Positions 1 through 25,180 of a DNA stretch of 64,000 bases are shown piece after piece (within the stretch, counting starts at the first letter, position 1; each line of letters begins with the position of its first letter). The DNA is taken from positions 62,001 to 126,000 of the forward strand of contig NZ_FOIJ01000001.1 in assembly GCF_900111745.1 (NCBI RefSeq), written 5' to 3'. This DNA is from Stigmatella erecta (GTDB lineage: Bacteria > Myxococcota > Myxococcia > Myxococcales > Myxococcaceae). Made by a program: the position numbers and the translations under genes. The notes under the pieces were generated by a model that worked only from the letters and a program-made list of their open reading frames with translations, made no database searches and had not been told where the DNA came from.

Positions 1-3000
1 CGCGGGGATGTTGTAGGAGGCGTTGCCCTGTCCGAACTGCTCCAGGAACCAGAGCCGGTGCTGGGCGAAGGACATCGGGAGCGCCCCACCGCGGGGGATG
101 CGCACCAGCGGCGGCCGGCTCGCGCCCTGGCGCTCCCGGCGCGACCGTTCCACCCGCTCCGCGAGCCGGGCGACCGTCGGGGCCTCGAAGAAGTCCCGGA
201 CCGACACCTCGGCCTGGAAGGCATCCCGGATGCGGACAATGGCCTGCATCGCCAGCAGCGAGTGGCCTCCGCGCAGGAAGAAGTCGTCGTGGATGCCCAT
301 GCGCGGCACGTCCAGCACCAGCGCCAGGACTCCCGCGAGCAGCTCCTCCGTGGGCGTCCGCGGCGCGACGTAGTGCCCCTCCGCCGCCAGCTCGCCCTCG
401 GGGGCGGGCAGGGCCTTGCGATCCACCTTGCCGTTGGGCGTCAGCGGCAACCGCTCCAGCGTCACGAAGGCCGAGGGCACCATGTACTCCGGCAGCCGCG
501 TCAGCAGGTGTTCCCGCAGCTCGCTGGCCGTGGGCGCCGGGCCCTGGCTGGCCACGTAGCCCACCAGCCTCCGCTCCGCGCCGTCCTGCCTCACCACGAC
601 CGCGGCTTCCTTCACCGCGGGGTGCTCTCCCAGCACCGATTCCACCTCTCCCAGCTCGATGCGGAAGCCGCGGATCTTCACCTGCTCGTCGCGGCGCCCC
701 AGGTACTCCAGCTCTCCGTGCTCACTCCACCGGGCCACGTCCCCGGTCCGGTACAGCCGCTGTCCAGGCTCCGGGCTGAACGGATCCGGCACGAAGCGCT
801 CGGCCGTCAGCTCCGGACGGTTCACGTAGCCTCGCGCCACGCCCGCGCCGCCCACGTACAGCTCGCCCGGCACTCCCCGGGGCGTGGGCTGGCCATGCGC
901 GTCCAGCACGTACAGCGCCGTGTTGGCGATGGGGCGGCCGATGGAGACCGAGACCGAGCCGGACAGCACCTCTCCGGGCCGGACCTCGTGGATGCTGCAC
1001 CCCACGACCGTCTCGGTCGGACCGTACTCGTTGATGAAGCGCGTGCCCGGCGCCCGCTCCCGCCAGGGGGCCAGCATGGCCTCGGTCAGGGCCTCGCCTC
1101 CGATGACGAAGCAGCGCACCTTGCCCGCGACGTCCACGTCCTTGAGTTGCAGCTCCAGCAGCGAGAGCTGGGTGGGGGTCAGCTTGACGATGGAGTAGTT
1201 GCTCCCCGTGCGCAGCACGTTCGCCAGCGCCTCTCCGCCCTTGCCCTCGGGCACCAGCACCGCCCGGCCCCCCGTCATCAGCGGGGTCAGCAGGCTGGTG
1301 ATGGTCAGGTCGAAGCCCAGCGGCGAGTGCACGGGGGCACCTTCGCCTCCCGCAGCCTCGTACGCCTCGCTGCTCCAGACGAGGTAGTTGACGGCGCCCC
1401 CGTGGGTCACCATCACGCCCTTGGGCTTGCCGGTACTGCCCGAGGTGTAGAGCACGTAGGCCAGGCTGCCGGAGTCCAGGGGCACGCCGAGGTTGCCGGT
1501 GTCCTCCTGGCTCAGGTCCACTTCATCCAGACACACCCGGGGCAGCTCCGTCCGGGGCAGCTGCTCCCGGATCGACGCGTGCTCCACGAGGGCCCGCGCC
1601 CCGCTGCTTTCCAGGATGTAGGCCAGGCGTTCGGCGGGGTAGCTCGGGTCCAGCGGGACATACGCTCCGCCCGCCTTGAGGATGCCGAGCAAGCCCACGA
1701 CCATGTCGAGGCGCCGCTGGAGCGCCAGGCCCACCCGCACCTCGGGCCCCACGCCCAGCCGCTGGAGGTGGCGCGCGAGCTGGTTGGCCCGGGCGTTCAG
1801 CTCCCTGTAGCTCAGCGTCTGGCCGGAGAACTCCACCGCGATGGCGTCCGGCGTCCGCCCCGCCTGCGCCTCGAACAGGGCGCGGACATCCGTGTGCTCC
1901 CGGGGCGCGGTACGGGTGGCGTTCCACTCGGTCAGAAGCTGCTGCTTCTCCTGGGCGCCCAGCAGCGGCAGCTGCTCGTAGCGGCCCTCGGGACGCAGGG
2001 CCATCTCCGACAGCGTCCGCAGGTAGTAGCCCGCGATCTCATCGAGCTGCGCCGCATCCCACTCCCGGCCGTTGCTGCGCAACGTCAGCTTCAGGCTCTG
2101 CGACTCTGGATTCACGCTGAACGTCGTGTCCAGGGGCAGATCCAACCAGGAGGTCTCCTGGTACGGCTCGACGAGGCGCACCCCCTCGATGTGAGAGAGG
2201 CCCTCGGAGACGTGGAAGTGGACGAAGTTGAAGAGCGTCTCGAACAGCGGCTGCCCGCCGAGCTGCTGGCGCAGCCGGGCCATGGGGTAGCGGCGGTGAG
2301 GCATCAGCCCCCGCTCTTGCGCCACCACGTCCTGGACCAGCTCCACCCACGTGCCGCCCCCGAGCCGCATGCAGAACGGGACGCTGTTCAGGAACAGCCC
2401 CAGCACCCGCTCGCCGTCCTCCACTTCGGGACGCCCGTTCGACACGAAGCCGGTCACCACCTCGGGTGAGCCATCGAGCACGCTGCGGACGCGCAGGTGT
2501 GCGGCGAGCAGGACGTTCTTGAGCGGTGCTCCCGCCTGGTGGGCCAGCGCGCGCAGGCCCCGGGAGACCTCCTCGGCGAGCGGTATCTCGCGGAAGAGGA
2601 GCGGGCTGGAGCCCTCCGTCACGGGACGGCGCCGCCCGGCACTCGCCGAGCCCGCCCGCGACATCTGGGTCAGTTGCTCGCTCCAGTAACGCTGGGCATC
2701 CGCCGACTCGGAGGTCTGACGCTCGAGCGCCACGAAGTCGCGGTACGACGCGGCCAGTAGATCCACGGGCAGCGCGGCGCCCCGGCGCGCCGCCAGGTAC
2801 CGGGGGAAGAGCTCGGCCAGCAGCGAGGCAAAGCTCCAGCCGTCGAGGATCGCGTGGTGGAAGATCACCGAGAGCTGCGCCGTGCGGGCGCTGCGCCGGT
2901 GCAGCGCGAAGCGGATCAGCGGTGCCCGGTCCCAGGTGAAGGGCCGGCTGCGCTCCTGTTCGAGCCACTGGACCAGGAAGGTGGACTGCTCGGCCTGGGG

Positions 3001-6000
3001 CAGGTGGGTGAGATCCTCCTCATGCAGGGGCACCTCCACCTCGCGGTGGACGACCTGCAGGGGGATGCCATAGCGGGCCAGATCGAACGAGGTCCGCAGC
3101 ACCGCGTGCCGTTGAGACAGCTCGCGCAGAACTTGCCGCAGCGTCCCGGCGTCCGCATCCAGCTCCAGGTGGAAGCTGAAGGCGTCGTGGTAGAGCGCGG
3201 TCTCCTGGCTGTACTCGCTCTGGAAGAGCATGCCGGCCTGCAGCACCGCGAGCGGGTAGGCATCCACGGCATCCGCGGGCAGCCGGGCGCGGTCCGCCGG
3301 GGGCACGAGCGCGAAGGGCGCGTAGGCCACCGTCGCGGCGGGGGCCGCGTCCTGGATGGACTCGGCGATGGCGCGAATGGTCTGCTTCTCCAGGAGCGTC
3401 GACACGGACAGCTCTAACCCGCGCTCGCGGCAACGCGCCACGAACTGGATGGCCCGGATCGAATCGCCGCCCAGATCGAAGAAGCTGTCGTCGATGCCCA
3501 CCGTCTCCACGCCCAGGACCTCGGCGCCCACGGCGGCCAGGATCTTCTCGGCGGGGGTTCGGGGCGCCTCGTAGGCCTTGCCCAGCTCGGGCCGGGAGCC
3601 GTCCGGCGCTGGCAGCGCGCGGCGGTCGACCTTGCCATTGGCCGTGAGCGGCAGCGCCTCCATCACCACGAGGACCGCGGGCACCATGTAGGCGGGCAGC
3701 TTGTCCGACAGGAACACCTTCATCCCGTCGATGGCCAGCGTCTCGCCCTCCTCGAGGGTGACGTAGGCCACCAGGGACTTCTCGCCCGCGATCTCATGCA
3801 CGGTCACGGCGGCGTCCTGCACCGCCGGGTGGCGCCGCAGGGCGGACTCGATCTCTCCGGGCTCGATGCGGAAGCCGCGGACCTTCACCTGGTTGTCGGC
3901 GCGGCCGAGGAACTCCAGCGTGCCGTCCCGCCGCATGCGGCACAGGTCCCCGGTGCGGTACATCCGGTCTCCCGGCGTGCCGCTGAAGGGGTTGGGCAGG
4001 AAGCGCTCTGCGGTCAGCTCGGGCCGGTGGAGGTAGCCGTGGGCGAGTCCGTCTCCCGCCGCATAGAGCTCTCCGGGCGAGCCGATGGGGACCTGCTCCA
4101 GGGCCCCATTGAGCACATACACCCGGGTGCCCGGGATGGGGTGGCCCAGGGGCACGCTGGAGCGAAGCTCCTCGCGGCGGGTCACCGGGAAACAGCAGGT
4201 GAAGGTGGTGTTCTCCGTGGGGCCGTAGCCGTTGATGACCCGGCACGCCGGGTGGGCTTCCAGCACCTGGGCCACGTGCGGCGGGGAGAGCACATCGCCG
4301 CCGGCCAGCAACTGGCGCACGGGCGCCAGCACGCCGAGGTGCGAATCGACGAGCTGGTGGAACAACCCCGCCGTCAGCCACAGCGTGTTCACTTGCTCGC
4401 GCTGGATCAGCTCGCCCAGGCCATCGAGCGACGGCGGGGTGGGCGGCGCGATGACCAACCGGCCCCCGTTCAGCAGGGCGCCCCAGATCTCGAACGTGGA
4501 GGCGTCAAAGGCCAGCGGCGCCAACTGCAGCAGCGTCTCTTCCGGAGACAGGCGCACGTAGCCGGGTTCGAGCACCAGCCGCAGGATGCCCCGGTGGGGC
4601 ACGGCGACGCCCTTGGGCGTCCCTGTGGAGCCCGAGGTGAACAGCACGTAGGCCTCGGAGTCCGGGCCCACCGTGTGAGAGGGGTTGTGCCCGGGCTGAC
4701 GGGCGATCGCCTCTTGCTCGGTGTCGACACACACGAGCTGGATCCACTGTGCGGGCAGCTCGTCGGCGATCTCCGACCGGGTCACGATCGCCGCGGGCTG
4801 TGCCTCCTCCAGCAGGAAGCTCACGCGCTCCGCCGGATAGCTCGCGTCCAGCGGCACGTAGGAGCCGCCAGCCTTGAGGATCGCCAGCAGGCCAATCACC
4901 ATCTCCAGCGAGCGCTCCAGCGACAGGGCCACCCGGCTGCCGGCCCCCACGCCGATTCCGCGCAGGTGGTGAGCGAGCTGATTGGCCCGGCGGTTGAGCT
5001 CACCGTAGGTGAGCGTCCGCCCCTCGAAGGTGACCGCGATGGCGTCAGGCGTCAGCTCCGCGCGCTGCTCGAAGCGAGCGGGAACGGAGGCTCCGGGTTG
5101 GACGCGGTTCGGTGTCTCGTTCCAGGCCGCGAGCCGCCGGTGCTCCTCGCCGGTGAGCATGGGCAGGGTGTCGATGCGCCGCGTGGGCGCGGCGGCCACC
5201 GTGCGCGCCAGCACGAGGAAGTGCTCCCACAGGCGCTCCATCGCCTCGCCGTCGAAGACGTCCGTGTTGTACTCGGCGGTGACGGTCAAGCCCTCGCTGC
5301 CGGGCACGAAGATGAGCAGCAGGTCCCAGCGCGCGAGCCCGTTGCTCTCGCCCTCCATCAGCTCCAGGGTGAGCCCAGGCAGCTGCATGGCGGGCATGGG
5401 CGCGTTCTCCAGAACGAGCTTGGCCTGGAAGAGCGGCTGGCCCGTGGCGGTGCGCTGCGTCCGCAGCTCCTGGACGAGCCGGCCGAAGGGGGTGTCCTGG
5501 TGCTCGTAGGCCTCCAGGGCCACCTGGCGCACGCGGCCGAGGAGCTCCTGGAAGGTGGGCGCGCCCTCCATGCGGGTGCGCAGGACGAGCTGGTTGGTGA
5601 AGAAGCCGATGAGGCCTTCCAGCTCGTCACGCCCACGGTTGGCGATGTCGGTGCCGACCGCGATGTCGTCCTGCCCGGTGTAGCGCTGGAGCAGGACGTT
5701 GAAGACGGCGAGCAGCGACATGAACAGCGTGGCGCCTTCGCGCTGGGCCAGCGCTTCGAGCTGGGCGGCCAGCTCGCCGGGGAGGAAGAAGTGCTGGCCT
5801 CCTCCGTGGAAGCGCTCGCCCGGAGGACGGGGCGCGTCCGTGCGGAACTGCAGCGTGGGAACCTCCGCGAGCTGCTGCCGCCAGTACGCGAGGTTCTCCG
5901 TCAGCACGCCGGACTGGAGCCAGTCCCGGTGCCATGCCGCATAGTCGGCGTACTGGAACGCCAGCTCCGGCAGGGACGAGGGCACACCCTGGCTGTGGGC

Positions 6001-9000
6001 GCCGTAGAGCGCCGCGAGTTCACGCAGGAACACGCCGCCCGACCACCCGTCGGAGACGATGTGGTGCAGCGTCAAGCACAGGACGTGCTCCTGGCCACTC
6101 AGCCGGATGAGCAACGTGCGCAGGAGCGGGCCCTGTTCCAGGTTGAATGGACGCTTGGCCTCTTCGCGTGCCAGGTGCCGTGCCTGGGCCTCGGCCTCCT
6201 GGGGCGGGAGGGCACTCAGGTCCACGAGCGGCACCTCCACGGGGCCCGGAGGCAGAATCACCTGCACCGGGTTTCCGTCCACCTCGCGGAAGACCGTCCG
6301 CAGCGCCTCGTGGCGGTGGACAATCCCGGAGAGGGCACTTGTCAGCGCGGGGGGATGGAGCGCGCCGCGCATCCTCAGCGCGGCGGGGACGTTGTAGATG
6401 GGCGAGCCCGGGGACAGCTTGTCGGCCAGCCACAGCCGCTCCTGGGCCAGCGACAAGGGCATGGGCGCGGCGCGCGAGACCCGGAGCAGCGGCGGCAGCG
6501 CCTTCGCCGAGGGGGTGGCCTCGTCGATGCGGCGGGCCATCGCGGCCACGTTGGGCGCGTCGATCAGGAGGGTGCGCAGCGGCAGTTCCACGCCAAAGGC
6601 GCTGCGGATGCGGGCGATCACCCGGGCGGCCATGAGCGAGTGCCCGCCCAGCTCGAAGAAGCTGTCGTGGATGCCCACGCGGCCGGCCTGCAGCACCTGC
6701 TCCCAGATGTCCGCCAGCTTGCGTTCCGTGTCCGTCCGCGGAGCGGTGTATTCGCGCCCCAGGGTGGAGCGCCCGTCCTCCGGAGGCGGCAGGGCCTTGT
6801 GATCGAGCTTTCCGTGATGCGTCAGCGGAAGCGCCTCGAGCCGCACGAAGGCGGCGGGAACCATGTACTCCGGCAGCCGCCCCGTCAGCAGGCCCCGGAG
6901 CTCGCGCACCGCCTCGGGAGGAGCCACCACATACGCCACCAGCCGTGGGTTGCCCGGGGAGTCCTCGCGCAGGATGACCGCTGCCTCGCGCACACCCGGC
7001 AGCTCGCGCAGCACGGACTCGATCTCGCCCGGTTCGATCCGGTAGCCGCGCAGCTTCACCTGGTGGTCGATGCGCCCCACGTACTCGAGGCCACCGTCCG
7101 GCAGGAAGCGGACCCGGTCGCCCGTGCGGTACAGCCGGGCGCCCGGCGTGGTGCTGAAGGGGTGCGGCACGAAGCGCTCGGCGGTGAGCTCGGGCCGGCC
7201 CAGGTAGCCGCGCGCCAACCCCACGCCCGCGACGCACAGCTCGCCCGGCACGCCCACGGGGAGGGGCCGGAGGGCCTCATCCAGCACGTACACCTGGACG
7301 TGGGCCAGGGGCCGTCCGAGCGTCGGACGCGAGGGGTCCATCCGCGGATTGAGGGTCGCGCAGACCGTGACTTCGGTCGGGCCGTAGGCGTTGACGAAGC
7401 GCACCCGCTCGGCCCAGCGCGCGGCCAGGTCGGCCGGGCAGGCCTCTCCGGCCGAGAGCACGGTCCGGAGGCTGGGCACCTCCGAGGGCTCGAGCTGCGC
7501 GAGCACGGACGGGGTCAGCGTGACGACGGTGATGGCCTGCTCGCGCAGCGTCTCGGTGAGCGGAGCGCCGGGCAGCAGCTTCTCCTTGGGCACCAGACAC
7601 AGCGTGGCCCCCGAGAGCAGCGGGGGGAAGATGTCCGAGACCGCCGCGTCGAAGCTCAGCGCGAAGAACTGCAGCAGGCGGCTGTCCACCCCCAGCTGCA
7701 TGACCGCGAGCGTCTCTCGCGCGGTGTTGCACAGGCCCCGGTGCTCAAGGAGCGTTCCCTTGGGACGGCCCGTCGAGCCCGAGGTGTAGATGACGTAGGC
7801 CAGGTTCCTGCTGGTGGCACCGCCCGCGAGATCCTCCGCGGACTCCCGGGCGGCTTCTCCGGCCAGGTCCTCGAGGCACAGCGCCTGTCCCACGGGCTCG
7901 CCCAGCCGCGTGAGCAGCGGGCGGCGCGTGAGGACAAGCGGCGCGCGCGTATCGTTCAGGATGAAGGCCAGGCGCTCGGAGGGCAGGGTGGGATCGAGCG
8001 GGACATAGGCACCTCCCGCCTTGAGAATCGCCAACAGCCCCACGATCACGTCGAGCGAGCGTTCGAGGCACAGCCCGACGAGCACGTCAGGACCCACGCC
8101 GCGCCGGCGCAACACGCGCGCGAGCTGATTGGCCTGGGCATTGAGTTCACGGTAGCGGAGCTGCGCGCCTTCGAAGGTGAGCGCCACGGCTTCGGGCGTC
8201 CGAGAGGCCTGTGCCTCGAACAGGCGGTGAGCGCAGAGCTCCTCGGCCTCACCGGCGCGGGTTCCACTCCAGTCCACGAGCAGCCGATGGCGCTCGGCCT
8301 CGTCGAGCAGGCTCAGCTCCGCCAGCGGGGCCGAGGGGTGGGCCACCGCGGCTTCGAGCAGGCGGCCCAGGTGCGTGACCAGTTGCCGCGCGGTCTCCTC
8401 GCTGAACAGGTCCGTGCTGTACTCCAGCCGGCCGGAGAGCCCACCGGCCCGCTCCGAGAGCGCCAGGTGCAGGTCGTTCGCGATCAGCCGATTCGGCAGC
8501 TCCAGCCGCCGCAGCTCGAGGCCTGGCAGGGTGTGCTCGGTGAGCGGATCCGGCTCGATGGCCAGCACCACCTGGAACAGAGGCGAGGCGCCCTGATGGC
8601 GCGCGGGCCGAAGCGCCTCCACCAGCTTCTCGAAGGGCAGCTCCTGATGGGCGTACGCTTCGAGCGTCACGTCCCGCACGCGCGCGAGCAGCTCGCGGAA
8701 GGTGGAGACCCCCGTGAGCCGGGTTCGCAGGACGAGCGTGTTGACGAAGAATCCGACGAGCGCTTGCGTCTCCGAGCGGTCGCGGCCCGCGATGGGCGCC
8801 CCCACGCAGAGGTCGTCCTGTCCCGAGTAGCGGGACAGGAGGAGCTGATACGCCGACAGCAGGACGACGAAGGGGGAGACGCCCTGCTCACGCGCCAGCG
8901 CCCGGACCCGGTCCATGAGCTGCGCGCTCCACTGCACTTCCACGCTCGCGCCCCGGTGGCTGGACACCGCGGGCCGGGGATTCGCCACCGCCAGATCGAG

Positions 9001-11712
9001 CACCGCGGGCGCCCCTTCGAGCTGCCCTCGCCAGTACCGGAGGTGCTCCTCCAGGGCGCCACCCTGGAAACGTCCGCGCTGCCACGCCCCGTAGTCGGAG
9101 TACTGAATCGGCAGCCCGGGCAAGGCCGCGGGCTTGCCCGCCGTGTGAGCCTCGTAGAGCGCCGCCACCTCGCGGACGAGCACGCTCATCGACCAGCCGT
9201 CGGAGACGATGTGGTGCACCGTCAGGATGAGCACCTGCTCATCCGCGTGGGTGCGCAGCAGAACCGCTCGCAGGAGCGGGCCGTGGGCCAGATCGAACGG
9301 CAGGAGCGCCTCGGCGCTGGCGCGCCGCTGGACTTCCTGCTCGCGCTCGGCGGCCGGACGCGTGCGCAAGTCCTCGGTCACGAGCTGGAAGGACGCATCC
9401 GGGGCGATGACCAGGACCGCCGGTTCCTCGGCGTCCGTGGCGCGGAAGGTGGTTCGCAGCGCCTCGTGGCGGCGCACGATGTCCTGGAAGGTGCGCTCCA
9501 GGGCCGGGACGTCCAGGTGTCCCTTCAACCGGACCGCCGCGGCGATGTTGTACAGGGCGCTGCCGGGCTCGATGCGATCCAGCAACCACAGCCGCTCCTG
9601 CGCAGGGGACAGCAGGGGAGGCGTCCCCTCCGGCCTGCGCGGAATCGGAGGCTGGATCGCCGTCTCGGCCGCGCGGCGCTGGTGGAGCACCTGAGCCAGC
9701 TCGGTGAGCGTCGGCCCCCGGAGCAGCTCCTCCATGCGCACGGCAACGCCCGCATCCGTCTCCAGCTCATGCCCCAGCTCGAGCGCGGTGAGCGAGTCGA
9801 AGCCGAAGCTCGTGATGGGCTGGGCCGCATCCAGCTCCGCTTGCCGGACGCGCAGGCGCCGGGCGAGCCGGGTCCGCAACCACGCGGTGGTCTCTTCCAG
9901 AGAGGCCCCCGCCGCCAGCGCCGGGGTGTCCTGGGCCGAAGGGTCCTGCCCGTTCGCCGGCGTTTCCTGCTGCTCCGCTTGCCAGGCCGAGACGACGGCG
10001 AGCTCGCCCGCGCTGAAGCCCGCGCGGGTGGCATGGCGCTGGATCTTGCCGCTGGAGGTCTTGGGAATGCTGCCGGGCTCGATCAGCACGAGCGCGTGAA
10101 GCTGGACCTCGTGCAGCTCCGCCAGCCGCTGGCGCACCACGGCGGTCACCTCGGCGGGATCCGTCAGCTTGCGCGGATCCACTTCCTGAACGATGACGAG
10201 CCGCTCTTCGCCCTCGACATCCACCGAGAAGGCCGCCGAGCACCCTGGCCGCAGCGCGGGGTGGCTCTGTTCCACCGTCAGCTCGACATCCTGGGGGTAG
10301 ATGTTCCGGCCCCGGAGGATGATGAGGTCCTTGAGCCGCCCCGAGATGAACAGCTGGCCCTCGTGGAAGAACCCGAGGTCTCCCGTGCGCAAGAAGGTCT
10401 TCTGGCTGTCCCCGGCCACCCGCGCCTGGAATGTGCGCGCCGTCTCCTCGGGCTTGGCCCAGTAGCCTTGCGCCACGCTGTGGCTGCAGACCCAGATCTC
10501 TCCAATGGTGCCCGGTGCGCACGGCGTGCCGTCCGAGGGCGAGACGATCCGGATGTCCTCGCCCGGCAGGATTCCACCGCAGGCGACGAGGGTCTGTTCC
10601 TGGGCGCTCCCACCCGGCACCGCCTGTCCGAGTGACAGGGCCCTGGTGTCGAAGGAACGCTGGACGGTGGGGGCGCCCTTCTTGGCGCCCGAGACGAGCA
10701 GCGTCGCCTCGGCCAGGCCGTAGCATGCGTAGAAGGCGTTGGGGTCGAACCCGCTCGGCGCGAAGGCCTCCGCGAAGCGCGCCAGCGTCTCCGGCCGGAT
10801 GGGCTCGGCGCCGCTGAACGCCACTTCCCAGCGGCGCAGATCGAGCGCCTGCCGCTGCTCCGGCGTGCTCTTGCGGACGCACAGATCGAAGGCGAAGTTC
10901 GGGCCTCCGCTCACGGTGCCCCCGAAGCGCGAGACGGCCTCGAGCCACATCATGGGGCGCTTGAGGAAGTCGAGCGGGGACATCAGGACCGCCTGATACC
11001 CGGCGTAGAACGGCTGGAGGATGCCGCCGATGAGCCCCATGTCATGGTAGGGCGGCAGCCAGATGATGGCCGAGGAGTCCGTCCGGGTCTCGAACGCGCG
11101 GTGGATGAGCTCCAGGTTGTGCAGCAGGTTGCCGTGGCTGAGCATCACCCCCTTGGGGGTGCCCGTGGAGCCCGAGGTGTACTGCAGGAACGCCAGCGTG
11201 TCGGACGCGGATTCGGGCGGTTGCCAGTCGAGCCCCTGGGGCTCGGGGAGCGTGTCGGTGGCCACCCAGTGGAGCTCCTTGAGCTCCGGCGCCTGCTCGA
11301 ACAGCATCTCGGCGAACGAGGCGATGAACGAGGTGGTGAGGACCACCGTCGCCTGCGCGTCCGCGATGACCTTCCGGAGCCGCGGCAGCGTTCGCCCCAG
11401 CCGCATCGGGTCCGGTGGATAGGCCGGTACCGCGGTCCGCTGGGAGTACATGCACCCGAAGAAGCCCGCGATGTATTGCAGTCCGGGCGGGTAGAGCAGA
11501 ACCACCCGTGCGCCGGGGCGGGACACCTCCGTCAACGCTTCCCCGATGCGGCGAGCCCAGCGATCGAGCTCTCCGTGCGTCATCGTGCTGTCGGAACCGT
11601 CCTCCTCCAGGAAGGTGTAGAGCCGGGAGTTGGGCTGGGTAGCGGTTCGCTGGCGGAGCAGTTCAACCAGCGAAGCGGGAGAACGGGAGGACGCGCGATG
11701 CGCAACGGACAT
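1..11712 (-). CDS. Non-ribosomal peptide synthetase with FAAL loading domain (3' part beyond window)
   Basis: One frame stays open for 3,904 codons and runs off the left edge. Domains in order (residues approximate): fatty acyl-AMP ligase 1-585 (FAAL marks FYACYGLAEATL and GRLKDLIILRGRNIYPQD); ACP with FGFDSL, Ser640; C1 ~698-1140 (HHIVSDGWS); A1 ~1163-1645; PCP1 LGGHSL, Ser1692; C2 ~1752-2200; A2 ~2218-2690; PCP2 LGGDSI, Ser2751; C3 ~2820-3260 (HHAILDGWS); A3 ~3278-3765; PCP3 RGGHSL, Ser3818; start of C4 at the edge. Specificity residues aligned by eye to GrsA: A1 DASTLAAVCK (Tyr-like), A2 DAFWLGGTFK (Val-like), A3 DLTKVGEVGK (Asn-like). No E, MT or TE domain is visible. The ATG at 11712 is chosen because FAAL homology starts right after it; no clear Shine-Dalgarno precedes it. 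Predicted visible product: fatty acyl-Tyr-Val-Asn-peptidyl chain. Substrate calls are inference. Confidence 0.95.
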   Translation of the reverse strand, partial: MSVAHRASSRSPASLVELLRQRTATQPNSRLYTFLEEDGSDSTMTHGELDRWARRIGEALTEVSRPGARVVLLYPPGLQYIAGFFGCMYSQRTAVPAYPPDPMRLGRTLPRLRKVIADAQATVVLTTSFIASFAEMLFEQAPELKELHWVATDTLPEPQGLDWQPPESASDTLAFLQYTSGSTGTPKGVMLSHGNLLHNLELIHRAFETRTDSSAIIWLPPYHDMGLIGGILQPFYAGYQAVLMSPLDFLKRPMMWLEAVSRFGGTVSGGPNFAFDLCVRKSTPEQRQALDLRRWEVAFSGAEPIRPETLARFAEAFAPSGFDPNAFYACYGLAEATLLVSGAKKGAPTVQRSFDTRALSLGQAVPGGSAQEQTLVACGGILPGEDIRIVSPSDGTPCAPGTIGEIWVCSHSVAQGYWAKPEETARTFQARVAGDSQKTFLRTGDLGFFHEGQLFISGRLKDLIILRGRNIYPQDVELTVEQSHPALRPGCSAAFSVDVEGEERLVIVQEVDPRKLTDPAEVTAVVRQRLAELHEVQLHALVLIEPGSIPKTSSGKIQRHATRAGFSAGELAVVSAWQAEQQETPANGQDPSAQDTPALAAGASLEETTAWLRTRLARRLRVRQAELDAAQPITSFGFDSLTALELGHELETDAGVAVRMEELLRGPTLTELAQVLHQRRAAETAIQPPIPRRPEGTPPLLSPAQERLWLLDRIEPGSALYNIAAAVRLKGHLDVPALERTFQDIVRRHEALRTTFRATDAEEPAVLVIAPDASFQLVTEDLRTRPAAEREQEVQRRASAEALLPFDLAHGPLLRAVLLRTHADEQVLILTVHHIVSDGWSMSVLVREVAALYEAHTAGKPAALPGLPIQYSDYGAWQRGRFQGGALEEHLRYWRGQLEGAPAVLDLAVANPRPAVSSHRGASVEVQWSAQLMDRVRALAREQGVSPFVVLLSAYQLLLSRYSGQDDLCVGAPIAGRDRSETQALVGFFVNTLVLRTRLTGVSTFRELLARVRDVTLEAYAHQELPFEKLVEALRPARHQGASPLFQVVLAIEPDPLTEHTLPGLELRRLELPNRLIANDLHLALSERAGGLSGRLEYSTDLFSEETARQLVTHLGRLLEAAVAHPSAPLAELSLLDEAERHRLLVDWSGTRAGEAEELCAHRLFEAQASRTPEAVALTFEGAQLRYRELNAQANQLARVLRRRGVGPDVLVGLCLERSLDVIVGLLAILKAGGAYVPLDPTLPSERLAFILNDTRAPLVLTRRPLLTRLGEPVGQALCLEDLAGEAARESAEDLAGGATSRNLAYVIYTSGSTGRPKGTLLEHRGLCNTARETLAVMQLGVDSRLLQFFALSFDAAVSDIFPPLLSGATLCLVPKEKLLPGAPLTETLREQAITVVTLTPSVLAQLEPSEVPSLRTVLSAGEACPADLAARWAERVRFVNAYGPTEVTVCATLNPRMDPSRPTLGRPLAHVQVYVLDEALRPLPVGVPGELCVAGVGLARGYLGRPELTAERFVPHPFSTTPGARLYRTGDRVRFLPDGGLEYVGRIDHQVKLRGYRIEPGEIESVLRELPGVREAAVILREDSPGNPRLVAYVVAPPEAVRELRGLLTGRLPEYMVPAAFVRLEALPLTHHGKLDHKALPPPEDGRSTLGREYTAPRTDTERKLADIWEQVLQAGRVGIHDSFFELGGHSLMAARVIARIRSAFGVELPLRTLLIDAPNVAAMARRIDEATPSAKALPPLLRVSRAAPMPLSLAQERLWLADKLSPGSPIYNVPAALRMRGALHPPALTSALSGIVHRHEALRTVFREVDGNPVQVILPPGPVEVPLVDLSALPPQEAEAQARHLAREEAKRPFNLEQGPLLRTLLIRLSGQEHVLCLTLHHIVSDGWSGGVFLRELAALYGAHSQGVPSSLPELAFQYADYAAWHRDWLQSGVLTENLAYWRQQLAEVPTLQFRTDAPRPPGERFHGGGQHFFLPGELAAQLEALAQREGATLFMSLLAVFNVLLQRYTGQDDIAVGTDIANRGRDELEGLIGFFTNQLVLRTRMEGAPTFQELLGRVRQVALEAYEHQDTPFGRLVQELRTQRTATGQPLFQAKLVLENAPMPAMQLPGLTLELMEGESNGLARWDLLLIFVPGSEGLTVTAEYNTDVFDGEAMERLWEHFLVLARTVAAAPTRRIDTLPMLTGEEHRRLAAWNETPNRVQPGASVPARFEQRAELTPDAIAVTFEGRTLTYGELNRRANQLAHHLRGIGVGAGSRVALSLERSLEMVIGLLAILKAGGSYVPLDASYPAERVSFLLEEAQPAAIVTRSEIADELPAQWIQLVCVDTEQEAIARQPGHNPSHTVGPDSEAYVLFTSGSTGTPKGVAVPHRGILRLVLEPGYVRLSPEETLLQLAPLAFDASTFEIWGALLNGGRLVIAPPTPPSLDGLGELIQREQVNTLWLTAGLFHQLVDSHLGVLAPVRQLLAGGDVLSPPHVAQVLEAHPACRVINGYGPTENTTFTCCFPVTRREELRSSVPLGHPIPGTRVYVLNGALEQVPIGSPGELYAAGDGLAHGYLHRPELTAERFLPNPFSGTPGDRMYRTGDLCRMRRDGTLEFLGRADNQVKVRGFRIEPGEIESALRRHPAVQDAAVTVHEIAGEKSLVAYVTLEEGETLAIDGMKVFLSDKLPAYMVPAVLVVMEALPLTANGKVDRRALPAPDGSRPELGKAYEAPRTPAEKILAAVGAEVLGVETVGIDDSFFDLGGDSIRAIQFVARCRERGLELSVSTLLEKQTIRAIAESIQDAAPAATVAYAPFALVPPADRARLPADAVDAYPLAVLQAGMLFQSEYSQETALYHDAFSFHLELDADAGTLRQVLRELSQRHAVLRTSFDLARYGIPLQVVHREVEVPLHEEDLTHLPQAEQSTFLVQWLEQERSRPFTWDRAPLIRFALHRRSARTAQLSVIFHHAILDGWSFASLLAELFPRYLAARRGAALPVDLLAASYRDFVALERQTSESADAQRYWSEQLTQMSRAGSASAGRRRPVTEGSSPLLFREIPLAEEVSRGLRALAHQAGAPLKNVLLAAHLRVRSVLDGSPEVVTGFVSNGRPEVEDGERVLGLFLNSVPFCMRLGGGTWVELVQDVVAQERGLMPHRRYPMARLRQQLGGQPLFETLFNFVHFHVSEGLSHIEGVRLVEPYQETSWLDLPLDTTFSVNPESQSLKLTLRSNGREWDAAQLDEIAGYYLRTLSEMALRPEGRYEQLPLLGAQEKQQLLTEWNATRTAPREHTDVRALFEAQAGRTPDAIAVEFSGQTLSYRELNARANQLARHLQRLGVGPEVRVGLALQRRLDMVVGLLGILKAGGAYVPLDPSYPAERLAYILESSGARALVEHASIREQLPRTELPRVCLDEVDLSQEDTGNLGVPLDSGSLAYVLYTSGSTGKPKGVMVTHGGAVNYLVWSSEAYEAAGGEGAPVHSPLGFDLTITSLLTPLMTGGRAVLVPEGKGGEALANVLRTGSNYSIVKLTPTQLSLLELQLKDVDVAGKVRCFVIGGEALTEAMLAPWRERAPGTRFINEYGPTETVVGCSIHEVRPGEVLSGSVSVSIGRPIANTALYVLDAHGQPTPRGVPGELYVGGAGVARGYVNRPELTAERFVPDPFSPEPGQRLYRTGDVARWSEHGELEYLGRRDEQVKIRGFRIELGEVESVLGEHPAVKEAAVVVRQDGAERRLVGYVASQGPAPTASELREHLLTRLPEYMVPSAFVTLERLPLTPNGKVDRKALPAPEGELAAEGHYVAPRTPTEELLAGVLALVLDVPRMGIHDDFFLRGGHSLLAMQAIVRIRDAFQAEVSVRDFFEAPTVARLAERVERSRRERQGASRPPLVRIPRGGALPMSFAQHRLWFLEQFGQGNASYNIPA

Positions 11713-11718
11713 ATGGGC

Positions 11719-11751
11719 CAGTCTATTCAGTTTTGACAGTTTCAGAACAGT
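11719..11751 (-). promoter_or_regulatory. Phased ACTG repeats upstream of the NRPS start
   Basis: Read on the minus strand, the AT-richer stretch just before the NRPS start contains four ACTG tetramers with spacings of 11, 9 and 9 bp, i.e. near one per helical turn. The last lies only 7 nt from the ATG, where a ribosome site would be expected, and no Shine-Dalgarno is visible. This could be an activator site or coincidence in a short AT-rich patch. Confidence 0.25.
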
Positions 11752-11811
11752 GGGAACCCCGGCGGTCAGCCCGGTGGGAGACCAGGCCGCCGAGCGCGGG
11801 CGCGACGCAAC

Positions 11812-11838
11812 GGGTGCGCTGCTCATGGCAGCGCACCC
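11812..11838 (-). terminator. Perfect 11-bp hairpin between acylase gene and NRPS
   Basis: GGGTGCGCTGC, a five-base loop, then the exact reverse complement. It lies 25 bp after the acylase stop codon and about 100 bp before the NRPS start. There is no U-tract after it on the minus strand, so it may be a processing or stabilising hairpin, or a partial attenuator, rather than a classical terminator. Confidence 0.4.
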
Positions 11839-11862: not shown

Positions 11863-14343
11863 CTAGTCGGCCGAGAGGGTGACCTGCGTCAGGGCCGGGT
11901 CCGCGAGGATGTCCTCCTCGGTGAAGCGGACCGCGCGCCACTGCTTGCGCGCGAAGAGCTCGGTCTGGTCGCGGTAGTAGGGCGAGGCCGGATCCGAGGA
12001 CTCGCTGTACGTCAGCAAGGCCCGCGCATTCACGCCTTGCCCGGTGAACTCCAGGGCCATGAGGAAGCTGGAGCCGTTGGCGACGACGTAACCCTCGGAG
12101 GTCAAACCGGTTGCGGGGACGAGCACCGGGCCCCGGGCCGGAGGCTGATCGACGACCGTGGACTGCAGGGTGTCGTAGGAGATGACGTTGGCCACGCCGT
12201 CCCGGTGCAGGCCTCCGTGCAGGCCGATGCGCTTGTCACCCCGGGGGGCGAACTGCACGGTGGCCAGCGGGACGTCCAGGGCGATGTTCGCCCCCTGGAG
12301 CACGGTCACCGCCTGCGCGAGGTTGACCAGCGCCGGGTCCTCCCCCGTGGACGGGGCGGGCACCAGGGTGTTGGGCGTGGTGATGGGCGCGTCCGGGTTG
12401 AACCCCTGGAGGAAGAGCGAGCCCTTGTCGAAGAAGTGCGGCCCCGGGTAGATGCCGGTGAACTCACGCCAGAGCACCGCGCCGGTGCTGTCCGCGTCGA
12501 AGCGGCCGTTCCAGGCGCTGAGCGTCGCGCAGGCCTTGGTGAGGTCCACGGTCTTGCCGCCGTAGGTGGCCGAGGGCGTGCGCTGGCAGCGCTCCACCAC
12601 CTGGGCGAGCAGCAGCTCCGAGGTGATGCTGCGGTTGTTGAGAATCGCGGCCTGGAGCTCGTCGAGCGTGAACTTGCCGTCCGCGCCGGAGGCCCCCGCG
12701 GGGGTTACCTCGGTGAGCATCTGCATGTTCATGCGCGTGCGCGGGGACGGGGCCCGGCGCGCGAAGCCATGCATCGGCGAGAGCTCCGGCAGGGGCGCCG
12801 CCGGGTTGGTCAGCCAGTAGCTGTCGTTGGCGTTGAAGACGAAGTCCCGGCGCGACAGCTTCGGCGCCTGGGAGAAGGGCACCAGCCCAGGGGTCCGGGC
12901 CCCCGGCGCCTCCACCCACGCGTTGGCCGAGGTGCTGCCATCCAGCAGCACGAGGTTGGCCGAACGCAGCAGCTGGGTCGCCAGCGGGTCCGCGCCCGAG
13001 GAGGCCTTGAGCCAGGACTGGATGGCCGCGTTGCTCAGGTTGGGGGCCGCCGCGCCATCCACGTACCAGGTGGTGCCGTCACGGTCCGCCGCCACCGTGT
13101 TGACCCAGGGAATGCCCTGGTGGGTGGCGAAGGCCTCCTGGAACTCCTGCAGGTTCTTCGCCCGGTTCATCCCGTGGAACTGGGAGATCATCTGCGTGTT
13201 GGTCAGGTTCGCATCGCAATAGGTGTACGCGACCTGGGGGCTCCAATCCGCGGCGCCCGGAATGACGATGATGGGCCCGAAGTGGCTGCTGTAGAGCGTG
13301 CGCGTCAGCGGCACGAGCGAGCCGTCCGGCTGGAGCACGGAGACGGTGTGCGTGCGCGCCGTCAGCGGCCACTCCTTGCCGTCATAGAGGTAGTGGGTGG
13401 GCTTGCCGGGCGCGAGCTTGAGCCGGTAGAGCGTCATGCGCTGGCCGGCCGAGACCGTATGCGTCCAGGCGATGTGATCGTTGAAGCCGATGAGCACGCC
13501 CGGCACGCCCAGCAGTCCCACCCCGTAGACATTCATCACGCCGGGGACGGTGAGGTGGCTCTCCCAGAAACGCAGCTCGCCCTGCCACGGGAAGTGGGGG
13601 TTGGCCACGAGCATGCCCCGGCCCCCCTGCGCGCGCTCGGCGCCAATGGCCCACCCGTTGCTGCCGACGTCCCGCTCGCGCAGCGCCTGGAGCTGCTCCA
13701 GCGAGGGGGCCTCGAAGGTCTCCTGGGGCAGCGTGGTGATGCCCGGGGGGGCCGGAGGCTGGGCGGCGGCGATGGCGGAGATGAACTGGAAGCTGCTCGT
13801 GAGCAGCCCCAGGCTGATGTGATACGCCATCAGGTCCACTTCATCGATGGGCTTGGCCCACGCGGCGTTGGCGCACGCGGCGGGCAGGCCACCGGGGCCC
13901 GTCTCCTCGAGGTAGCGGTTGTAGCCCGCGACGTACCCCTGGAGCATCGTCCGGACGTCGGCCTTCAGCCGAGGCACGGCCTGGCGCGCGCGCGTGTAGA
14001 GATCCAGGGACAGGTAGCCGAGATCGCTGGCCACGTGGGCATTGCCGGGGCCCGGGCCCAGGTAGCGCGCGCGCTCGCCGCGGACCTTGATGACCTGATC
14101 CGCCAGGGAGCAGAAGTGGTCCTGGGCGAACGCATAGCCCTGGCCATACGCCACGCTGCCCAGGTCCTTGCCCGTGATGTGGGGGATGCCGTGACTGGTG
14201 CGCCGGATGGTGGCCTCGAAGCGAGGCCCCTGGGGTGGAGGCGGCGGCTGTGGCTCGGGGGTGTCCTCGCTGCAGGCCGTCACGGCGAGCAGCGCGAGCA
14301 GGGCAGCCACGGACCTCGGGGGCTTCCGGGTGCCGCGAGCCAT
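11863..14343 (-). CDS. Penicillin acylase/PvdQ-type N-terminal nucleophile hydrolase, lipoprotein
   Basis: 826 residues from the chosen ATG, which gives a clean lipoprotein signal (basic MARGTRKPPR, hydrophobic stretch, lipobox VTAC with Cys24). A second in-frame ATG 48 bp upstream would add a serine-rich lead; neither has a good ribosome site. The protein has the Ntn-hydrolase layout: alpha part starting with the RTSHGIPHI/AYGQGYAFAQD signature, a linker, and a beta part whose N-terminal nucleophile is Ser228 in DVGSNGWAIG, followed by VANPHFPWQ and the GFNDHIAWTHT segment. Family members cut amide-linked acyl groups (beta-lactams, acyl-homoserine lactones, pyoverdine precursor, aculeacin). 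Maturation by self-cleavage before Ser228 is expected. It lies between a CmlA-like hydroxylase gene and the FAAL-NRPS on the same strand, so deacylation or tailoring of that lipopeptide is a reasonable inference; quorum-signal cleavage is the alternative. Confidence 0.9.
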   Translation of the reverse strand: MARGTRKPPRSVAALLALLAVTACSEDTPEPQPPPPPQGPRFEATIRRTSHGIPHITGKDLGSVAYGQGYAFAQDHFCSLADQVIKVRGERARYLGPGPGNAHVASDLGYLSLDLYTRARQAVPRLKADVRTMLQGYVAGYNRYLEETGPGGLPAACANAAWAKPIDEVDLMAYHISLGLLTSSFQFISAIAAAQPPAPPGITTLPQETFEAPSLEQLQALRERDVGSNGWAIGAERAQGGRGMLVANPHFPWQGELRFWESHLTVPGVMNVYGVGLLGVPGVLIGFNDHIAWTHTVSAGQRMTLYRLKLAPGKPTHYLYDGKEWPLTARTHTVSVLQPDGSLVPLTRTLYSSHFGPIIVIPGAADWSPQVAYTYCDANLTNTQMISQFHGMNRAKNLQEFQEAFATHQGIPWVNTVAADRDGTTWYVDGAAAPNLSNAAIQSWLKASSGADPLATQLLRSANLVLLDGSTSANAWVEAPGARTPGLVPFSQAPKLSRRDFVFNANDSYWLTNPAAPLPELSPMHGFARRAPSPRTRMNMQMLTEVTPAGASGADGKFTLDELQAAILNNRSITSELLLAQVVERCQRTPSATYGGKTVDLTKACATLSAWNGRFDADSTGAVLWREFTGIYPGPHFFDKGSLFLQGFNPDAPITTPNTLVPAPSTGEDPALVNLAQAVTVLQGANIALDVPLATVQFAPRGDKRIGLHGGLHRDGVANVISYDTLQSTVVDQPPARGPVLVPATGLTSEGYVVANGSSFLMALEFTGQGVNARALLTYSESSDPASPYYRDQTELFARKQWRAVRFTEEDILADPALTQVTLSAD

Positions 14344-14445
14344 GGGAGAGAAGAACGAGGAGGAGGATCGGGGCAGGCTGGCAGGAAGCATGAGGAGCGG
14401 ACGCTAGGAAAACAGTCTTGACGGGGTCAATGGGGGGGACGGCTC

Positions 14446-16041
14446 TCAGCCCAGGAGGAATTCGCCGCGGATGAAGGGCATCTCGGCCTGGATGCCGTGG
14501 GCCCGGCAGTGCTCCAGGAGCTTCCGGGCCTCGATGAGCTGGGGCGAGGTCTCCGTGTAGCCCATGGCCATGATGTGGCCCAGCCAGGGCTCCCGGCCCA
14601 TGGCGTAGACATAGACCTGCTTGGGGTGGAGCTGGTTGACGATCTCGATGGCCCGCTGGGCGTTGGAGCCGTTGAGCCGCCGCGACTGGTCCGCCTTGCG
14701 GGGCAGGGGGGTGGTCAGCAGCGCCCCGTACATCCAGCTCATGGGGGCGCCTTCGCTCTCCATGCCCAGGAACAGGACGTCGATGTCGCCCACCACGCGC
14801 TGGACGTGCTCGTACAGGCGCGGCTCGATGGCGTTCGAGTCCGCCGCCATGAGCAGGGACTTGCCCTCGAGGTGGACCAGGTGGGCCGTCTTCGCGCGGA
14901 TGTTGAGGTCGCCGTGCTCGCCGAGGAAGGGCAGGCCCGTGATGGAACCGCCCGGGATGTTCAGGGTCTCCAGCTCGTCGATCTCCACCACGTGGGGGAA
15001 GCCCGTGTGCTTCAGGAGCAGCTTGAGCGAGGGGTCCGCCAGCGCGCCGCTGTTGCTGCGCGGGACGACGATCGTGCCAATGCGCCGGCGCAGCGGCAGG
15101 AGCGTCTCCAGCATCAGGTGGTCGGCGTGGCCGTGGGTGATGAGCACGTAGTCGATCCGCTCGGGCAGATCCGCCTCGGTGAAGCGCGGCGCATCGGCGT
15201 TCGTGTCATGGCTGAGCACGGGATCCGTGAGGATGCTCACCTCGCGCGACTCCAGCAGGACGCAAGCGTGGCCGAAGTAGCGCATGCGCACCCCGGGGCC
15301 CTCGTGGCGGCGGCGGGGCTGGGGGGCCTCGCCGGTGAAGAAGGAGGCGAAGCGCTCGGCATCCGCCTTCCGGACGCCCAGGGCCTCCATCACGGGCTCG
15401 ATGGGCGCGGGCGTCTCGCGCATGGCGAACAGGGTGTCCAGCGCCTCGTGGCGGAAGGGAACGTGGACGTGGACCGTGCCCTCGTCGCTGTCCAGCCGGG
15501 GCGTGCTGTAGACGTAAGGGCGGGCGTCTCCCTGGAGCAGCCGGAAGGCGAGGCTCTGCGACGACTCGCGGTAATGGGGGCTGCGGTACATCAGGGGCTC
15601 GATGAAGCGGACGGCGGGGCGGTGGTTCAGGTCGTACGTCAGCTCGACGTAGCCCCGGAGGATGTCCGGCACCTGGGCGTACAGCCCCTCCAGGGACATG
15701 GCCGGGGGGGCCTTGGCGAGCAGCTTCTCCAGATCGGCGATGGCCCGGGCCAGCTGGATCGACGGGGCTTGCTCGGTCTGGGTGCGATCCAGGAGCGCCT
15801 TCACCTCCGCGGCGCGCTCCACCCCGTAGTTGAGGTACGGGCCTCCCCGCAGCGCGGGATCCTTCAGCGCGGAGACATGGAGCTCCGGCGACTGCACGAA
15901 GGACTGCATCAGCTTCAGGTGCAGGTGGGTGACGAACAGAGGCGCCGTCGTGGGCGGGATGAGGTACCACCACGCGTACCACTGGTTGTAGAGCGGCTCG
16001 ATCGCGACGTTGCGCTTCAGGTACCGGGCGGGAGAGGGCAT
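14446..16041 (-). CDS. CmlA-type diiron beta-hydroxylase for carrier-bound amino acids (MBL fold)
   Basis: 531 residues, nearly the 532 of CmlA from chloramphenicol biosynthesis. The N-terminal half has the family stretch EPLYNQWYAWWYLIPP and is not a beta-lactamase region; the C-terminal half is a metallo-beta-lactamase fold with THGHADH. The candidate ligands His303, His305, Asp307, His308, Glu375 (GEHGD) and Asp401 (AADSN) all fall two positions before the CmlA ligands as I remember them (305, 307, 309, 310, 377, 403). CmlA and relatives such as Dbv28 hydroxylate the beta carbon of an aromatic amino acid held on an NRPS carrier domain. The neighbouring NRPS has a Tyr-like first module, so PCP-bound Tyr is the likely substrate (inference). 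A generic MBL annotation would miss this. The gene is co-oriented with acylase and NRPS, 102 bp upstream of the acylase ATG. Confidence 0.85.
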   Translation of the reverse strand: MPSPARYLKRNVAIEPLYNQWYAWWYLIPPTTAPLFVTHLHLKLMQSFVQSPELHVSALKDPALRGGPYLNYGVERAAEVKALLDRTQTEQAPSIQLARAIADLEKLLAKAPPAMSLEGLYAQVPDILRGYVELTYDLNHRPAVRFIEPLMYRSPHYRESSQSLAFRLLQGDARPYVYSTPRLDSDEGTVHVHVPFRHEALDTLFAMRETPAPIEPVMEALGVRKADAERFASFFTGEAPQPRRRHEGPGVRMRYFGHACVLLESREVSILTDPVLSHDTNADAPRFTEADLPERIDYVLITHGHADHLMLETLLPLRRRIGTIVVPRSNSGALADPSLKLLLKHTGFPHVVEIDELETLNIPGGSITGLPFLGEHGDLNIRAKTAHLVHLEGKSLLMAADSNAIEPRLYEHVQRVVGDIDVLFLGMESEGAPMSWMYGALLTTPLPRKADQSRRLNGSNAQRAIEIVNQLHPKQVYVYAMGREPWLGHIMAMGYTETSPQLIEARKLLEHCRAHGIQAEMPFIRGEFLLG

Positions 16042-16116: not shown

Positions 16117-17706
16117 TCAGTGAATCCCTCCGCCGGGGGGAAGGGGCTCCTCCCCGGGAGTTCCTGGCTTCGCCGGGAGCAGGATCCGGAAGGTCGTCCC
16201 TACCGCCAGGGTGCTGCTCACCGACAGCTCCCCGCCCAGGCCCCGGATGATGTCATGGCTGATGGAGAGCCCCAGCCCCGTGCCCTCGCCCACGGGCTTG
16301 GTCGTGAAGAAGGGCTCGAAGATGCGCTCCAGGTGCTCGGCGGCGATGCCGCAGCCATTGTCGTGCACCTCCACCAGCACCCGGTCAGGGCTGTGCATGC
16401 GGGTCACCAGCCGGATCTCTCCCCCGGCCTTGTTCAAGGCCTGGGCGGCGTTGATGAGCAGGTTGACGAACACCTGGGAGAGCTGCACCGAGTTGCCCTG
16501 CACGAGCGACAGCTCGCCATAGTCGCGCACCAGCCGTCCCTTGCTGCGCAGCCGGCTCCAGGCCAGGTGGACCGAGTTCTCCAGGACTTCGTTCAGGTCC
16601 ACCGGCTGGGTGGTGATGGAGTCCCCGCGCGAGAGCGCCTTCAGGCTCTGGACGATGACGCGCATGCGCTCGGCCCCCTCGCGCGCATCGGAGATGGCCT
16701 CCCGGAGCTCCTCCAGGTCGACGGACGGCAGCGCCACCCGGCGCAGCTCCGTGTCGATGAAGTTGAGGTTGCTGGAGACGAACGCCAGCGGGTTGTTGAT
16801 CTCGTGCGCCACCCCCGCGGCCAGCATGCCGATGGCGGCCATCCGCTCGTTGAGCCGCAGCCGCAGCTCGTTCTCCCGCTGCTGGGAGATGTCGCGCATC
16901 ATGATGGCCATGCAGTTGCCCACCGCGTTCAGCTGCCTGCGGAACCAGCGGCGCCCCTGAGGCAGCACCTGCTCCACCTCCTCGTCGTGAGGCTTGCCGG
17001 TTCTCCAGACCTCCTGGCACAGGTGGGGCGGCGCGATGAAGCCCGCCTGGGGAAACTCCGTGAACAGCCCGCCCTCGGCTTCCGCGGCCTGGCAGCCCAG
17101 CAGGGCTTCGCCATGGGAGTTGAGGCGCAGCAGGCGCAAGCCGTCGGGATCCTCCCGCAGGAGGAAGAACGCATCGAAGCTGCTGTTGGACGTGGCGCGG
17201 AAGAGCGCCTCGCTCTGCAGCTGGACCGCCTCGCTGCGCCGGTGATCCGACAGGTCCCGCGACAGGCCAAACAGCCCCACCACCTGGCCGTCGGGGCGGC
17301 GGAGAATCCCCTTGGTGGAGACCCACTCGCGCCGGACTCCTCCCAGGAACTCGGTCATCTCCGCGTGGAGCGTGCGCCCGGCCATCAGCGTCTGCCGGTC
17401 GAACTCCAGCGTGTTCTGCGCCTCCTCGGCCGTCATCAGCTCGCTGTCCTTGCGGCCGATGATCTCCGGGATGGGCAGGCCCAGGTAGCGCGCCCCCGCG
17501 CTGTTGATGAAGGTGTAACGGCCCTGGAGATCCTTCGTGTAGACCGCCTCGGGCAGCAGCTCCGCCACCGCCAGGAACAGCTCGCGGTAGGGCAGCTCGG
17601 AATGCCCTTCACCGGTGGCATACGCCCCACTGGCTGCGCCCTGCCGATCCGGAGGTGGGGTCAGAAGGGACCCCTGGGTCGCGGCAGTCACATTGTTATC
17701 ACTCAT
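16117..17706 (-). CDS. PAS-PAS sensor histidine kinase
   Basis: 529 residues from the ATG reading MSDNNVT; an in-frame GTG 72 bp upstream is possible but less likely. A first PAS domain (about residues 40-150) and a degenerate second PAS (about 165-275) are followed by a short coiled linker, a HisKA domain with His301 in GVAHEINNPLAF, and a HATPase_c domain with NLLINAAQAL (N box), VHDNGCGI (G1), FEPFFTTKPVGEGTGLGL (F/G2). No transmembrane segment is visible, so it is cytoplasmic. No response regulator gene is adjacent. It lies directly upstream of and on the same strand as the hydroxylase-acylase-NRPS genes, so a regulatory link is possible but not shown. Confidence 0.93.
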   Translation of the reverse strand: MSDNNVTAATQGSLLTPPPDRQGAASGAYATGEGHSELPYRELFLAVAELLPEAVYTKDLQGRYTFINSAGARYLGLPIPEIIGRKDSELMTAEEAQNTLEFDRQTLMAGRTLHAEMTEFLGGVRREWVSTKGILRRPDGQVVGLFGLSRDLSDHRRSEAVQLQSEALFRATSNSSFDAFFLLREDPDGLRLLRLNSHGEALLGCQAAEAEGGLFTEFPQAGFIAPPHLCQEVWRTGKPHDEEVEQVLPQGRRWFRRQLNAVGNCMAIMMRDISQQRENELRLRLNERMAAIGMLAAGVAHEINNPLAFVSSNLNFIDTELRRVALPSVDLEELREAISDAREGAERMRVIVQSLKALSRGDSITTQPVDLNEVLENSVHLAWSRLRSKGRLVRDYGELSLVQGNSVQLSQVFVNLLINAAQALNKAGGEIRLVTRMHSPDRVLVEVHDNGCGIAAEHLERIFEPFFTTKPVGEGTGLGLSISHDIIRGLGGELSVSSTLAVGTTFRILLPAKPGTPGEEPLPPGGGIH

Positions 17707-17893
17707 GCAACAGCATGTATCCTCATCACGAGGAAACCGGCAGTTAGACCCAAGGCCAAGGGCGGGTTTTCCGTCCACCAGCGCACTTTTGAGCAGGGGA
17801 GAGTGTCAGCCCCTCTCAATTCAGCGGGATTGTTTGCCGGGTGCTCAACCGTGCGTCCAGCGAAGGGACGCGCGGCAGAGGGCTCGCCCCACG

Positions 17894-25173: not shown

Positions 25174-25180
25174 GTATTCC

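Follow-up and report, generated by a model that had tools for sequence, protein, structure and literature searches.

In pyoverdine biosynthesis, the fatty acyl chain attached in the first NRPS step is removed by PvdQ (PMC6206403). PvdQ-like deacylation of non-siderophore lipopeptides is known from glidonin (GdnD) and telomycin (Tem25) (PMC10587159). Among myxobacterial products, the acyl group is removed in vioprolide and was hypothesised to be removed before secretion in corramycin, and FkbH domains load glycerate in both (part of PMC10099666). Some myxobacterial FAAL peptides, with corramycin as the published case, are obtained lacking the fatty acid that the FAAL can load, and the deacylase had been a guess.

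The locus analyzed here, from Stigmatella erecta, carries a PvdQ-like acylase gene beside a FAAL-initiated assembly line. The window, i.e. the whole stretch of DNA that was analyzed, comprises 64,000 nucleotides (C1:62001-126000 of the 9.21-Mb genome), and coordinates without a prefix refer to it. The acylase is read here as a dedicated post-assembly deacylase of the FAAL-initiated NRPS/PKS product, with a probability of about 0.72.

The acylase and its export

The acylase ORF encodes 842 aa (826 aa with the alternative start ATG at 14343), and its codon-position GC (0.66/0.51/0.94) is a high-GC3 coding signature. The following features were assigned to it:

11863..14391, minus strand: PvdQ/MacQ-type Ntn-hydrolase acylase, predicted exported lipoprotein (Pfam, NCBIfam, PDB, Foldseek)
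14272..14343, minus strand: signal peptide MARGTRKPPRSVAALLALLAVTA with lipobox VTAC (Cys40) (translation; conserved in homologues)
13660..13665, minus strand: Gly243-Ser244, predicted autocleavage site and N-terminal nucleophile Ser1 beta (PvdQ alignment)
13594..13596, minus strand: His266, corresponding to His23 beta (conserved, PvdQ alignment)
13453-13455, minus strand: Val313, corresponding to Val70 beta (conserved, PvdQ alignment)
12826-12828, minus strand: Asn522, corresponding to Asn269 beta (conserved, PvdQ alignment)

The protein was matched to Pfam Penicil_amidase (PF01804, E 1.8e-135) over profile positions 1-673 of 675, and its top PDB relatives were PvdQ (E 1.9e-125) and MacQ (E 2.4e-115). 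The AlphaFold model (pLDDT 81.5, pTM 0.84) was aligned by Foldseek with uncleaved MacQ (5c9i; E 5e-64, TMt 0.89) and with PvdQ beta chains (E ~1e-44, TMt ~0.91); as modelled, the acylase has the Ntn-acylase fold. Ser244 aligned with PvdQ Ser1 beta and was invariant in the homologue alignment, and Arg551, corresponding to Arg297 beta, was conserved as well. Of the acyl-pocket residues, Phe24b, Leu50b, and Trp186b were kept, and Trp162b was replaced by Phe; PMC5474475 describes what His23b, Val70b, Asn269b, and the Trp residues do in PvdQ. The active site is intact, and by its sequence the gene product is a full-length PvdQ/MacQ-type Ntn-hydrolase with all catalytic residues present. No second PF01804-family gene was found in the window's genome.

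The top NCBIfam model was PvdQ (NF051460, E 1.3e-177), with a score of 592 bits. The curated cut-off of this equivalog is 950 bits, so the acylase is PvdQ-like but no PvdQ ortholog by the NCBIfam standard, and the equivalog assignment also fails on the absence of pyoverdine genes among the cluster genes scanned. The acylase is PvdQ/MacQ-type in sequence and fold; to call it a PvdQ ortholog is too strong, given this score and the position of PvdQ and MacQ outside the acylase clade described below.

At the N-terminus, a basic region precedes a hydrophobic stretch, which leads into the lipobox (VTAC followed by S) with Cys40, and the acylase is predicted to be exported and probably lipid-anchored. 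A Cys was located right behind the hydrophobic stretch in each of 16 inspected acylase N-termini, mostly from stand-alone genes, and Cys40 was nearly invariant in the alignment, where one row ends short of the position. The lipoprotein form, judged from these alignments, is a trait of the myxobacterial acylase branch. It had been called unusual and could be taken as a novelty of this locus; both views were dropped, since the lipobox Cys is shared by stand-alone homologues in myxobacteria, and the form therefore says nothing about this NRPS.

The operon and its predicted product

The genes around the acylase and the domains at the start of the assembly line are as follows:

16117..17778, minus strand: PAS sensor histidine kinase, adjoining the CmlA-type gene and co-oriented with it; backbone
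14446..16041, minus strand: CmlA-type diiron beta-hydroxylase (Pfam CmlA_N E 4.9e-85; PDB 8a90 and CmlA, E <= 1e-123)
1..11826, minus strand, continuing past the window edge (C1:55638-73826): NRPS1, 6062 aa, FAAL-T-(C-A-T)x5
9907..11736, minus strand: FAAL loading domain of NRPS1 (PDB FAALs; NCBIfam FAAL models)
6778..8196, minus strand: first A domain, code DASTLAAVCK (Tyr-like), for the residue predicted to bear the acyl group
C1:43388-55645, minus strand: NRPS2, 4085 aa, KS-AT-KR-T-C-A-T-C-A-T-C (Pfam)

Read along the minus strand, the CmlA-like hydroxylase comes first, followed by the acylase, NRPS1, and NRPS2. All are co-oriented, with the acylase 54 nt downstream of the CmlA-type gene and 36 nt upstream of NRPS1, and NRPS1 and NRPS2 share an 8-nt overlap. 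The observed co-orientation of a PvdQ-like acylase with a FAAL-NRPS is confirmed. The start by fatty acyl attachment was likewise upheld: the closest structures to the first domain of NRPS1 were FAALs (7r7g, E 3e-174, then FadD23/28/32), and NCBIfam FAAL models ranked high on it. These matches mark the FAAL-carrier loading module of NRPS1 as genuine; it would load the fatty acid first.

The A-domain codes were read against a GrsA sequence, with its own code (DAWTIAAICK) as a check. Codes 1-4 were DASTLAAVCK, DAFWLGGTFK, DLTKVGEVGK, and DFWNIGMVHK, and codes 5-7 were DACTIAAICK, DARSLSQLTK, and DASTIAAVCK. They presumably specify Tyr, Val, Asn, Thr, a Phe/Tyr-like residue, a sixth residue with no assignment, and Tyr. 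The sixth code, in NRPS2, is unusual and has a one-residue insertion. Residue five is followed by a KR-only PKS module, so a statine-like unit should result, and the predicted product is acyl-Tyr-Val-Asn-Thr-(Phe/Tyr)-[ketide, KR-reduced]-X-Tyr. With Tyr as the predicted first acceptor, the acyl link would be an amide bond. NRPS2 ends in a C domain (HHAITD), and no thioesterase was found.

The CmlA-type protein has both the CmlA N-terminal domain and the metallo-beta-lactamase-like diiron domain, and its HxHxDH motif is HGHADH in translation. Known CmlA-type beta-hydroxylases act on carrier-bound amino acids. Two further genes of the island were noted: a stand-alone FkbH-type HAD gene (C1:39573-41624; L007:9573-11624, plus strand), scoring 156 bits against TIGR01686, above the cut-off, and a gene of the aspartyl/asparaginyl-hydroxylase family (L004:1661-2419, plus strand), for which OlsC/LpxO acyl 2-hydroxylases scored highest and which could hydroxylate the acyl chain or an amino acid. 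No exporter or transporter genes were recognised in the cluster island of the window's genome.

Conservation and phylogeny

The sister species G003 keeps the whole operon (acylase 91%, CmlA 98%, NRPSs 96-97% identity). In Myxococcus llanfairpwll... (G059), the NRPS1 and NRPS2 orthologues are 68.5% and 75% identical and nearly equal in length, and six of the seven adenylation codes are the same, the fourth alone being different. The orthologous acylase (67%) is directly upstream of this assembly line and the racemase (69%) downstream. The cluster lies in another genomic context than that of the window, and since it keeps the acylase there, the acylase travels with the assembly line. The original prediction would have been refuted by a loss of synteny, and this refutation fails, the acylase being conserved with the NRPS in both relatives. 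No CmlA gene adjoins the Myxococcus cluster, so CmlA as an obligate partner is unsupported.

A macrolide-type glycosyltransferase gene lies between NRPS2 and the racemase in both relatives (L053:1440-2732 in G003, L135:4030-5337 in G059). It is absent from this position in the window's genome, where the best match elsewhere is 43%, and the product may be glycosylated in the relatives only. In G003, a second FAAL assembly line with glycosyltransferases and its own CmlA was located at about 43-96 kb of C33 (related terminal C domain 53%, FAAL 63%); no second acylase was matched in that genome.

In G004 and G005, of the same genus, the kinase (C1:78117) is found near genes matching C1:35220-37563 with no cluster between them. 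The kinase is thus chromosomal backbone, which rules it out as a cluster gene, and from this comparison the cluster spans roughly C1:39.5-78.05 kb, a site that is empty in both genomes. Farther along the window, a GH92 glycosidase with a C-terminal F5/8-type domain (25181-27874, minus strand) and an adjoining gene for a periplasmic sugar-binding protein (24046-25410) are also backbone, being present in G004 and G005.

In the careful acylase tree (30 homologues), the cluster-linked acylases of the window, G003, and Myxococcus grouped together in a clade with 100/99 support, and ten stand-alone acylases, among them a second copy from the same Myxococcus genome, made up its sister group. The same picture emerged from a quick tree with a wider sampling of 65 rows. 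PvdQ and MacQ fell outside the clade of nearly all myxobacterial PvdQ-like acylases, and two divergent myxobacterial acylases were placed near PvdQ, with unsure placement.

In G005, a diverged acylase (52-53%) precedes a different FAAL-NRPS, with 4 nt between the two. This FAAL-T-C-A-T protein (L049:6987-13433) contains a luciferase-like monooxygenase domain within the A region, and an MFS transporter is encoded near the pair. A single NRPS-linked clade of the window lineage, the G005 acylase, and the Archangium acylases was rejected (p-AU 2e-8), so the acylase-NRPS linkage is recurrent.

NRPS domains also flank acylase homologues in Corallococcus, Archangium, Paraliomyxa, Polyangium, Micromonospora, Lentzea, and Streptomyces. 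In Paraliomyxa miuraensis (L083), a PvdQ-like acylase, a CmlA-like gene (53%), and an NRPS occur together. A comparable pairing in Actinomycetota lies among NRPS genes of Micromonospora lutea (L094, 8809-12400), where a PvdQ-like acylase is directly adjoined by an AMP-ligase/FAAL-like gene (33% to the FAAL). Among the 43 homologue loci flanked by 5 kb or more on each side, 7 had NRPS domains within 5 kb and 36 had none, against 2.5% of the window's genome lying within 5 kb of a C domain, a rough yardstick because densities vary between genomes. As the homologues are mostly stand-alone, the acylase family has some other general role.

Role of the acylase and comparison with known systems

Under the preferred reading, the first carrier would receive a fatty acid from the FAAL, and the assembly line would then build an N-acyl peptide in the cytoplasm, one residue of which may be beta-hydroxylated by the CmlA-like enzyme. 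The acyl-peptide would then cross the inner membrane. The acylase would cleave itself at Gly243-Ser244 and, lipid-anchored, hydrolyse the acyl amide outside the cytoplasm, whereby the mature peptide would be released. Export of the acylated form, the true substrate, the moment of cleavage, and the gain for the cell (self-protection or an anchor for export) are inferred. Acylation inside and deacylation outside, as originally proposed, is the best reading of a FAAL start, an exported PvdQ-type acylase, and their co-travel between genera. FAAL products that retain the acyl chain are common.

Three candidate purposes of deacylation fit equally: activation of a prodrug, an anchor for export, or inactivation as a means of self-protection. 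The earlier interpretation, right in outline, is partly supported, and its word 'prodrug' is too strong. A bolder extension seems rather doubtful: that surface-anchored PvdQ-type myxobacterial lipoproteins were recruited repeatedly and independently as last-step activators of different FAAL-initiated peptides, here a KR-reduced statine-like one, so that toxic peptides are unmasked only outside the cytoplasm.

The acylated peptide might instead be the active toxic form, detoxified by the acylase at the producer's surface. Such a role has been suggested for GdnD and Tem25, detoxification or self-resistance being the proposal of the authors of the glidonin study (PMC10587159), and an outward-facing lipid-anchored enzyme would suit a shield as well as a maturase. 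The tight co-inheritance and the leading position in the operon by the FAAL fit maturation at least equally, however, and self-protection is considered unlikely.

That the enzyme is an AHL acylase merely located beside an NRPS and directed at the acyl-homoserine lactones of other bacteria is quite improbable. The closest characterised relatives, PvdQ and MacQ, do cleave AHLs, and stand-alone homologues are common in myxobacteria, but this acylase has moved along with its assembly line across genera and into another genomic context, and the Myxococcus genome retains its separate stand-alone paralogue. A LuxI search of four genomes gave no match, a weak argument given that no control genome matched either.

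A peptide siderophore matured as in pyoverdine would agree with the native role of PvdQ, with the iron-chelating capacity of beta-hydroxylated Asp/Asn, and with a siderophore-interacting-protein-like gene about 10 kb off (27938-28651). Yet the predicted residues (Tyr, Val, Asn, Thr, Phe/Tyr, X, Tyr) offer few chelating groups, siderophore synthesis and receptor genes were not found among the island genes scanned, and the nearby gene is backbone, present in the cluster-free G004 and G005. This reading was set aside as very improbable, there being no chelator-rich prediction. Many NRPSs in myxobacteria and mostly stand-alone homologues would allow a chance neighbour functionally unlinked to the NRPS, which is scarcely credible and largely refuted by synteny, immediate adjacency being conserved across genera, linkage having recurred independently, and 7/43 loci standing against the rough 2.5% yardstick.

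The conserved operon, with a PvdQ-type acylase beside a FAAL, offers a concrete enzyme-substrate pair that is open to testing. For product predictors, it means that a FAAL start need not imply a lipopeptide. The assembly line is conserved over two genera, and neither it nor its domain order matched a described product in the literature searched. Two-step maturation by acylation and deacylation is of a known kind, and the pathway here is new and apparently uncharacterised.

The locus shares with the pyoverdine system an exported Ntn-hydrolase of the same fold and catalytic residues. PvdQ, however, is periplasmic and belongs to a siderophore system with the ABC transporter PvdE, whereas the acylase of the window is a predicted lipoprotein in an NRPS/PKS cluster that is not siderophore-like. 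MacQ of Acidovorax (5c9i) is the closest solved fold to the uncleaved acylase model but is known for AHL and beta-lactam deacylation, with no NRPS link described in part of PMC5566955. Tem25 is, like the acylase, encoded within its own cluster. The gene for GdnD, in contrast, lies well away from the glidonin cluster, where acylation falls to a starter C domain instead of a FAAL. Myxobacterial FAAL-initiated assembly lines also make corramycin and vioprolide, but these differ in their first unit, glycerate introduced via an FkbH domain, and for corramycin the candidate is the 'putative hydrolase' ComB, a PvdQ-type acylase not being named in the part of PMC10099666 used here.
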